A stretch of 47,253 nucleotides of DNA from Robiginitomaculum sp. (GTDB lineage: Bacteria; Pseudomonadota; Alphaproteobacteria; Caulobacterales; Maricaulaceae), in NCBI GenBank assembly GCA_021776675.1, contig JAJFFM010000078.1:1-47253 (forward strand), in the 5' to 3' direction. How positions within the stretch are numbered: position 1 is the stretch's first letter; the number at the start of each line of letters is the position of its first letter. The notes under the pieces were generated by a model, which was not told the DNA's origin, made no database searches, and was given only the letters and a program-made list of their open reading frames with translations. Both the position numbers and the translations under genes were made by a program. Of the stretch, positions 3,453-6,677 are shown piece by piece.

Positions 3453-4775
3453 CTAGTTATCACCCTTGGAATCACCCGTGGAATCACCCATGGAATTACC
3501 CTTGGAATTACCCAGTGAAACACCAAGCTCAAAAGCACTGTGCAGAGCCCGCACCGCTAGTTCGGTCATGTCAGCATCAATCAACACGCTGATTTTAATT
3601 TCGGATGTGGCAATAACTTCAATATTGATATTACGCTCTGCCAGTGCAGAAAACATGGTGTGTGCAACACCCGCATGAGAGCGCATACCAATACCGACAA
3701 CAGACACCTTGCTGACCTTGTCATTGACAAGAAGGCCGTCGAATCCAATCTTTTCTTTGTTAGCCTCCAACGCAGCCAAAGTTTTATCGAGATCGCGGCG
3801 ACCAATGGTGAACACTAAATTGGCACTGTCTTCACGGCGTGATGTGCCTTGGACAATCATATCGACGCTAATATTGGCTTCAGACATGGCTCCGCACACA
3901 CGCGCGACAACGCCCGGTATATCATTTAACCGCAGCAATGAAATTTGCGCTTCATCGCGAGAATAAGCTACGCCGCTTACGACACGTTCTTCCATAATTT
4001 TGTCTCCTTTAAAGGATTCTTCTGAACAGACCAAGGTTCCGGGGTTGTCTTCATCGACATCCTTAAAACTGGTTAGTACCCTAATGGGTAAATTATTATT
4101 CATGGCCAGCTCAACGGATCTGGTCTGTAATACTTTTGCGCCTTGGGAGGCCAGCTCCAACATTTCTTCAAAGGCAATCCGGCCCAACCGTCTGGCTTCG
4201 GGCACAATGCGCGGATCCGTAGTATAGACACCGTCCACATCCGTATAAATATCACAGCGGTCAGCCTTTAAGGCTACGGCCAAAGCCACCGCAGACGTGT
4301 CCGAGCCACCACGGCCTAATGTGGAAACACGTCCCTGCGGGCTAATGCCTTGAAATCCTGCAACCACACCAACAACCCCGTCTTTAAGGGATTGGTTAAA
4401 AGCCAATGTTTCAATGCCTTTAATGCGTGCAGACGCATGGGCTCCGTCCGTCTGTAAGGGGATTTGCCAACCTTGCCAAGAACGGGCTTTTACGCCGCGC
4501 CTTCTCAGGGCAATGGACAAAAGCCCACTTGTGACCTGTTCACCCGATGCAACAATAGCATCATATTCGTCGTCTATTTCCCCGCCTGCGTTAGAATCTG
4601 CTGAAAGGTCGTCCACAAAGCCTACCAAGCGGTTAGTTTCGCCCGACATAGCCGAAACCACAACCGCCACTTCATTGCCATTCGCGTGCTCTGCGGCCAC
4701 TAGCGCAGCCACACGGCGGATCCTATCCAGATCAGCCACGGATGTGCCTCCAAATTTCATGACAATGCGTGCCAT
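3453..4775 (-). CDS. lysC: Aspartate kinase
   Basis: This enzyme phosphorylates aspartate, the first step towards lysine, diaminopimelate, threonine and methionine. The 440 residues start with MARIVMKFGGTSVADLDRI, the KFGGTS substrate/ATP motif, and contain GRGGSDTSAVALA and the YTDVDGVYTTDPR region. Two ACT regulatory domains follow in the C-terminal third (for example VVSGVAYSRDEAQISLL and VSVVGIGMRSHAGVA), so feedback control by lysine and/or threonine is likely. The last 20 or so residues are an unusual Gly/Ser/Asp repeat encoded by 12-bp tandem units, absent from ordinary LysC. It is followed immediately by ptsP. ubiG diverges upstream with only 63 bp between the two starts. Confidence 0.96.
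   Translation of the reverse strand: MARIVMKFGGTSVADLDRIRRVAALVAAEHANGNEVAVVVSAMSGETNRLVGFVDDLSADSNAGGEIDDEYDAIVASGEQVTSGLLSIALRRRGVKARSWQGWQIPLQTDGAHASARIKGIETLAFNQSLKDGVVGVVAGFQGISPQGRVSTLGRGGSDTSAVALAVALKADRCDIYTDVDGVYTTDPRIVPEARRLGRIAFEEMLELASQGAKVLQTRSVELAMNNNLPIRVLTSFKDVDEDNPGTLVCSEESFKGDKIMEERVVSGVAYSRDEAQISLLRLNDIPGVVARVCGAMSEANISVDMIVQGTSRREDSANLVFTIGRRDLDKTLAALEANKEKIGFDGLLVNDKVSKVSVVGIGMRSHAGVAHTMFSALAERNINIEVIATSEIKISVLIDADMTELAVRALHSAFELGVSLGNSKGNSMGDSTGDSKGDN
3460..3519 (-). repeat. Five 12-bp tandem units at the 3' end of lysC
   Basis: Plus-strand units are TCACCCTTGGAA, TCACCCGTGGAA, TCACCCATGGAA, TTACCCTTGGAA and TTACCCAGTGAA, head to tail. In the lysC frame they encode a repeated G-[ND]-S-x tetrapeptide that forms the extreme C-terminus. 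The period is a multiple of three, so copy-number change would keep the frame open. The end of the repeat also supplies the probable ribosome-binding site of ptsP. Confidence 0.9.
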
Positions 4776-5613: not shown

Positions 5614-5648
5614 TTCTGTGGGACAGAATAAGTGCGTGTCCGGACACG
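5614..5648. promoter_or_regulatory. Two adjacent palindromes upstream of the RHH/EF-hand gene
   Basis: TTCTGTGGGACAGAA lies at 5614-5628, a 6-bp inverted repeat with a 3-base centre. CGTGTCCGGACACG lies at 5635-5648, a perfect 14-bp palindrome. They sit 5-39 bases after ubiG and about 55 bases before the next start. There is no T-tract after either, so a standard terminator is not convincing. An operator for the downstream ribbon-helix-helix protein is possible. That role is inferred. Confidence 0.5.
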
Positions 5649-5702: not shown

Positions 5703-6677
5703 GTGGAACAAAACAATAAGACACAAGGCCATTTTGAGAAAAAGTCCGAGCGATTAGATATTCGGGTGTCCCATAAAAAGAAACAAGAGTTTACCGATGC
5801 TTGTCATGATCAAGGGGATACACCGAGTAACGCTGTACGGAGATTTATCACTTCTTATACGCGGCGGTCGAATTATGATAATCTCGGTGCAGCAATTCGC
5901 ACAAGCCCTCTACGTCGTATATTAGGGATACGGGGTTTGATTGGATTTGCTACGATAATAATGCTTGCATATGGGGGCCTTGTTGGCAAAAGGTATGTTT
6001 TGAAAGCCAATGAAACCCGTATCACAGATAAAGCCTTTGATATTTACGATCACAACAATAATGGCTTGATCGAACTCGGAGAAATTGCGCCTAACGACTT
6101 TCATCTCCACCGTGTTTTAAACATTGACGGGCAGGACGGGATAACTAGGGAGGAATTTGTAACCCATTCGACCATGATTTGGCGGTATGTCGACCCTGAC
6201 AACTTCCAAGTTATTGAGAATAAATTTAGCCGCTTCAAGCAAAAATCTGTTACTCGAACTATAACCGCCATCAGACAGGATGGGAAACCGTACAAACCGT
6301 CCGATAATACAAAGATGAAGAAATACATAATCGTTAACGGCGAACCGGTAGAACTAACAAGCGATAATATAATTTTGGAAAATGTTGGTGCAACCGAGGG
6401 AAATACCGATGGAAATTATAAGTATTTGCGTAAAAACGGTGGTCTTCCCAACTTTTCATCTGAAAGTTTTAAGACAAAAATAGTTAAGTTTGACTTGCGC
6501 AATCCTGACAAATTGGAACTGACTGTTTATGAGCAGCAGAGTCACAACTTGATATCTAAATCAATTAGCGTCCACCAAAGATCTGTTAGTTGGGTCGAAG
6601 GGCGGAAAACGCCAGAGTTGGTCGTGGGTATGGGGCGCGAAATGGCCGTCCTGACCAAGGAGTTACAAATCAATTAG
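5703..6677 (+). CDS. Predicted membrane-anchored ribbon-helix-helix protein with an external EF-hand
   Basis: I know no named family for the whole protein (324 residues). Residues 16-55 look like a ribbon-helix-helix DNA-binding fold: a strand (ERLDIRVS), a first helix (HKKKQEFTDACHDQGD), and a second helix (TPSNAVRRFITSYTRR). A basic segment and one membrane helix follow at about 75-95 (GLIGFATIIMLAYGGLV). By the positive-inside rule the N-terminus is cytoplasmic. Outside, residues 116-127 (DHNNNGLIELGE) match a 12-residue EF-hand calcium loop. A second, shorter EF-like loop follows (IDGQDGITREEF), then about 170 residues of unknown fold. The start is GTG with AGGAG upstream. This could be a membrane-bound regulator responding to calcium, or a non-DNA-binding protein with an RHH-like oligomerisation domain. 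Domain calls are by eye. Confidence 0.75.
   Translation: MEQNNKTQGHFEKKSERLDIRVSHKKKQEFTDACHDQGDTPSNAVRRFITSYTRRSNYDNLGAAIRTSPLRRILGIRGLIGFATIIMLAYGGLVGKRYVLKANETRITDKAFDIYDHNNNGLIELGEIAPNDFHLHRVLNIDGQDGITREEFVTHSTMIWRYVDPDNFQVIENKFSRFKQKSVTRTITAIRQDGKPYKPSDNTKMKKYIIVNGEPVELTSDNIILENVGATEGNTDGNYKYLRKNGGLPNFSSESFKTKIVKFDLRNPDKLELTVYEQQSHNLISKSISVHQRSVSWVEGRKTPELVVGMGREMAVLTKELQIN

Follow-up and report, generated by a model that had tools for sequence, protein, structure and literature searches.

Ribbon-helix-helix (RHH) proteins are usually regarded as small soluble repressors and antitoxins. Among them, NikR is a soluble metal-sensing repressor that binds nickel in the cytoplasm through an ACT-type domain. 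Here we describe a previously undescribed family of RHH/EF-hand proteins. Like NikR, the protein studied here joins an RHH domain to a domain of metal-binding type; unlike the soluble, cytoplasmic, ACT-type arrangement of NikR, this second domain is an EF-hand and is predicted to lie across the membrane. The family also resembles RelB/DinJ-type RHH antitoxins (PDB 9lew, 2k29) in its RHH sequence and in the palindromic predicted operator in its own promoter, but the toxin partner is absent, and a membrane helix and a periplasmic domain replace the toxin-binding tail.

Transmembrane transcription regulators such as ToxR, CadC and TcpP likewise combine, in one polypeptide, a DNA-binding domain in the cytoplasm, one membrane-spanning helix and a part in the periplasm; the main text of a survey gives the single-pass layout as the commonest among them (PMC10269533). 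Unlike the regulators treated there, the present family uses an RHH domain, and the terms RHH, ribbon and CopG are absent from that main text. The family also differs in that it would mostly target its own gene, and in that a second product, which is exported, seems to be encoded in most relatives. The initial annotation had stated that no described protein has this order of domains. This agrees with our literature search, in which 'ribbon-helix-helix' and 'EF-hand' were never combined, but the order is not unique, being common in the lineage. The RHH/EF-hand plan is new within the literature searched, its kind, the one-component transmembrane regulators, is known, and the two-product gene of most relatives appears unusual.

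The gene under study lies in the window, the whole stretch of 47,253 nucleotides of Robiginitomaculum sp. DNA that was analysed, and has the following features.

5703-6677, plus strand: whole gene, 324 amino acids, GTG start with the ribosome-binding site ACAGGAG directly 5' of it
5739-5858, plus strand: RHH DNA-binding domain of RelB/DinJ type, residues 13-52, with the strand KSERLDIRV and two helices (profiles, model)
5919-5975, plus strand: single transmembrane helix, residues 73-91, preceded by RR (hydropathy; a helix in the model)
6048-6083, plus strand: EF-hand loop 1, canonical, DHNNNGLIELGE, residues 116-127 (ligand pattern, conservation)
6120-6155, plus strand: EF-hand loop 2, degenerate, NIDGQDGITREE, residues 140-151 (conservation, model)
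6156-6674, plus strand: predicted periplasmic remainder, beta-rich, poorly conserved (low-confidence model)

The Shine-Dalgarno sequence of the GTG start, ACAGGAGATTGCT, scores -7.4 kcal/mol. The N-terminal part shows the strand-helix-helix order of about 45 residues, with a conserved strand and turn, that characterises the RHH superfamily. It matches the Pfam families RHH_9 (residues 12-52, E 3.8e-4) and RelB (residues 17-50, E 1.6e-3), both under the curated cut-offs, and a 14-sequence family profile matched the DinJ antitoxin 9lew (E 1.1e-5). The RHH domain is very probably a working DNA-binder. The sole hydrophobic 19-mer comprises residues 73-91 (mean 1.79; runner-up 0.54), and the charge of the RR on its N side points to an N-in orientation. 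The prediction thus places a DNA-binding domain and a transmembrane helix in one chain, which is the layout of transmembrane transcription regulators.

Beyond the helix, loop 1 holds all ligand positions, and a comparable loop arose in 0.075% of shuffled window proteins. The canonical DxDxDG..I..E loop between two helices, usually paired in EF-hands, is present in loop 1, and the pair is seen in the model. The Pfam EF-hand score of the window protein falls under the cut-off, and those of several relatives are over it; close relatives keep both loops. In an AlphaFold2 model of residues 11-168, the two RHH helices (pLDDT ~80) are followed by one long helix spanning the membrane and by paired EF-hands, whose loops each contain the short strand typical of the fold; overall confidence was low because the input consisted of 5 sequences only. 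A Foldseek search of the PDB returned mostly calmodulin-type chains, with no match at E < 0.001. The arrangement proposed in the initial annotation, with an RHH domain inside, one helix and an EF-hand outside, is therefore backed by profiles, hydropathy, model and conservation, and structure prediction recovered both the RHH helices and the membrane helix at modest confidence.

Homologues of the window protein were found in 22 of 99 relatives, with Robiginitomaculum, Hellea and an uncultured Caulobacterales bacterium among the named close ones. A search for the same architecture with a profile of the RHH domain, linker and membrane segment, as initially suggested, revealed relatives throughout Caulobacterales (158 of 398 genomes). 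More widely, the profile matched 10 of 385 class-level and 22 of 299 phylum-level genomes, and the distribution in other Alphaproteobacteria outside Caulobacterales is sporadic. The full architecture outside the order was seen in L120, L121, L122, L129, L130 and L132; other matches were mostly short RHH frames. Among the 107 distinct ORFs of the family set, some have one or several EF-hands in the periplasmic part, some have a TonB-C domain there (E 6.6e-8), and some have neither. One subgroup of the order, f3, probably Caulobacteraceae, consists of short members with a single EF-hand. Tandem family genes with a shared or repeated operator occur in L060, L038, L073, L085, L014 and L021, and in some of these pairs an EF-hand member is followed by a TonB-C-like one. 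Since the RHH-membrane module also carries TonB-C domains or no EF-hand, calcium was rejected as a family-wide signal.

Upstream of the window gene lie two copies of a predicted operator.

5637-5646, no strand assigned: operator palindrome TGTCCGGACA, with GTGTCCGGACAC at 5636-5647, conserved upstream of family genes
5616-5626, no strand assigned: second operator copy CTGTGGGACAG, half-site GGACA at 5621-5625, about two helical turns from the first

The window gene and its nearest relative (L002) both have the second copy upstream at equal spacing, with half-sites 11 bp apart (GGACA-N11-TGTCC). Every family subgroup whose upstream regions were aligned contained TGTCCGGACA or a close variant. 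Within 260 bp upstream of each gene, a perfect TGTCCGGACA occurred in 44 of 106 family genes and a site with at most one mismatch in 72, compared with 0.06 and 0.64 expected from dinucleotide shuffles. In 52 of 87 family genes (~2 expected), the best second site stood downstream of the first at a distance of exactly 22 bp. When the 2.36-Mb window genome was scanned, the tandem operator was found with 0 mismatches at the window gene only, the next best place having 2. The two other perfect single sites both fall within coding frames, and a wider regulon in this genome was rejected on that ground. A single perfect site was also found in each of three other genomes: in the complete 3-Mb genomes G308 and G379 it falls at the family locus, and in G038 it lies some 0.9 kb away from a second family gene. 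When 398 genomes were scanned without bias for a strict two-site pattern, 17 places emerged (0 for the reversed control pattern): 13 adjoin a family gene, one falls in a lepB promoter, with a family gene 2.7 kb from that lepB, the one in G275 has only a weak family-like frame nearby, and two are elsewhere. Autoregulation is not universal in the family, as most f3 RHH genes lack an upstream site and the neighbouring lepB carries one. Among the literature matches listed for the operator string, only p53-family or unrelated eukaryotic work appeared.

Named by reading of translations, the genes flanking the window gene are ubiG and dapE, and those in different relatives are htrA/argD, coq7/insulinase, hemB, uppP and kelch genes; a conserved neighbourhood was rejected, the neighbours differing between genomes and the RHH gene alone being constant. 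In two genera (L011, L013), a kelch-repeat-like gene is divergent from the family gene, and the operator could also control it. In a Hellea MAG (L059, 827-1246), the family gene overlaps an OmpR/ToxR-type winged-helix gene (Trans_reg_C, E 6e-17) by 4 bases, suggesting possible translational coupling of two regulators. Elsewhere in the window, an aspartokinase gene carries repetitive sequence at its end, GNSKGNSMGDSTGDSKGDN (3453-3530, minus strand).

The operator varies together with the RHH strand, and its variants are often palindromic again. The variant TGTCATGACA was found in eight of nine genes with a Lys in the strand, all eight having this Lys before the Leu/Ile/Val (SEKIE), and its centre in no non-Lys family gene. 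Counted by cluster, the pairing holds in 6/6 versus 0/22 clusters (Fisher p 2.7e-6). Similarly, a TGTAC half-site accompanies 5/6 genes with SER[LF]E strands, compared with 1/81 of the remaining genes, and TGTACGTACA occurs with the only Gln variant (SETLQ). On a poorly resolved tree built without the strand, Lys changes only about three times, so the covariation is suggestive and not phylogenetically independent proof. Combined with the varied gene neighbourhoods, it provides the strongest in-silico evidence suggesting that the RHH domain itself reads the palindrome. Of the 'calcium-responsive regulator' initially proposed, the regulator is thus strongly backed, since the gene's promoter contains a conserved predicted operator that varies in step with the RHH strand; calcium as a family-wide signal is not, given the TonB-C and EF-less members.

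As a whole, these results are best explained by a membrane-tethered, autoregulating one-component regulator with a periplasmic EF-hand calcium input, a reading we consider probable. That the protein is an autoregulator, taken by itself, is very likely; calcium as its input is a more tentative element that we would rather doubt than assume. The cytoplasmic RHH domains would pair and bind TGTCCGGACA and the second copy about two helical turns away in their own promoter, thereby setting transcription of their own gene, presumably by repression rather than activation. One uncleaved helix is predicted to anchor the protein in the inner membrane. The periplasmic EF-hand pair may bind calcium and, via the helix, alter RHH dimerisation and hence operator occupancy. 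Since the only clear target in the window genome is the gene itself, the output would be the amount of a periplasmic calcium-binding protein. The support is computed in silico and comprises the domains, the operator site, its conservation and near-uniqueness, and the covariation; calcium as a rule for the family is contradicted by the TonB-C and EF-less members.

Most relatives seem to add a second product. An in-frame ATG lies within 28 codons before the membrane core in 76 of the 107 members, and a Shine-Dalgarno sequence of -5 kcal/mol or lower precedes 84% of internal ATGs, versus 12% of the remaining in-frame ATGs and 14% of those out of frame, in a comparison that used the best ATG per ORF and favours the internal ATG somewhat. 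The internal Shine-Dalgarno sequence is spelled in different frames, as AAG GAG (Lys-Glu), AGA AGG AGA (Arg-Arg-Arg) or CGG AGT (Arg-Ser). The rare Arg codons AGA/AGG are enriched in the six codons before the internal ATG (24/42 versus 172/1554, odds 10.7, p 1.8e-12 in a pooled test that ignores kinship among members). Taken by itself, per-sequence codon resampling round the internal ribosome-binding site is weak evidence (median p 0.24), since AAGGAG is a frequent spelling of Lys-Glu; the pooled test, with kinship ignored, is the stronger of the two. The internal start is present in 20 of 37 clusters at 50% clustering and is found again in members belonging to other families within the class. 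A conserved internal Shine-Dalgarno sequence and ATG ahead of the membrane segment, and then a signal peptide, were seen in L008, L010, L013, L048, L050 and others, and 57 of 64 such main-group members have a signal-peptide-like segment with a cleavage motif after the internal start.

The internal start is absent in the window clade and in f3 members. It was rejected for the window gene, which has no such ATG with a ribosome-binding site; the best candidate is TTG codon 79 (-5.6 kcal/mol), which lacks a positively charged n-region. In most relatives, an internal ribosome-binding site and ATG are followed by a signal peptidase motif, and one gene would therefore give both a tethered regulator and an exported protein. 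A bolder version is that these are dual-product, self-sensing export genes, encoding a membrane-inserted RHH regulator and also, initiated internally, an EF-hand or TonB-C protein that lacks the RHH domain and is exported; where the helix bears a signal-peptidase site, as in f3 with its operator on a signal peptidase I gene, the regulator would report its own processing and tune export capacity. We regard this version as speculative and somewhat unlikely.

A related alternative moves the signal away from calcium altogether. The protein could be an export-coupled autorepressor, an RHH domain fused to an exported protein, whose free cytoplasmic RHH represses until it is removed or relocated as the helix is inserted into the membrane or undergoes signal-peptide processing; synthesis would then track export capacity. 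Consistent with this, almost all members outside the window clade have a signal-peptidase-like motif at the helix end (LPSAA|D, APSLA|Q or similar), and the periplasmic domains vary (EF-hand, TonB-C) as expected of cargo. A further point in its favour comes from f3, where a signal peptidase I paralogue runs convergently to the RHH gene and holds two operator copies in its promoter, at about -130 and -108 from the matched domain.

L096, 818-1618, minus strand: signal peptidase I paralogue (likewise in L165, L166 and L167), site in L096 at 1649-1658

This suggests the hypothesis that, in f3, a regulator with a signal-peptidase motif may control a peptidase. However, the operator is absent from ordinary lepB promoters of other genomes, and signal peptidase was rejected as a general target. 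The cleavage motif is also missing from the window protein and most of its clade, and the window protein is therefore predicted to stay anchored. We consider the export-coupled explanation unlikely.

Still less likely is that the EF-hand is merely structural and the protein an ordinary constitutive autorepressor, membrane-bound by chance. The operator at a single locus, the pairing of one canonical with one degenerate loop and the poorly conserved C-terminus fit such a protein, but the ligand positions of loop 1 are conserved in close relatives at 31-55% overall identity. An antitoxin with an extra domain fused is highly improbable: the RelB/DinJ-type RHH and the predicted operator in its own promoter are antitoxin-like, but a membrane helix stands in place of the toxin-neutralising part, and a toxin-antitoxin pair was rejected because no small toxin-like gene adjoins the window gene (ubiG and dapE here) or its relatives (other genes in each).

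If the membrane-tethered autoregulator is correct, RHH proteins join the one-component transmembrane regulators, and the predicted operator and specificity residues make the regulator claim directly testable. The internal starts suggest that, in many Alphaproteobacteria, two proteins, one a regulator and the other exported, have been annotated as a single product. Finally, the link to signal peptidase I in f3 could expose feedback on protein export.
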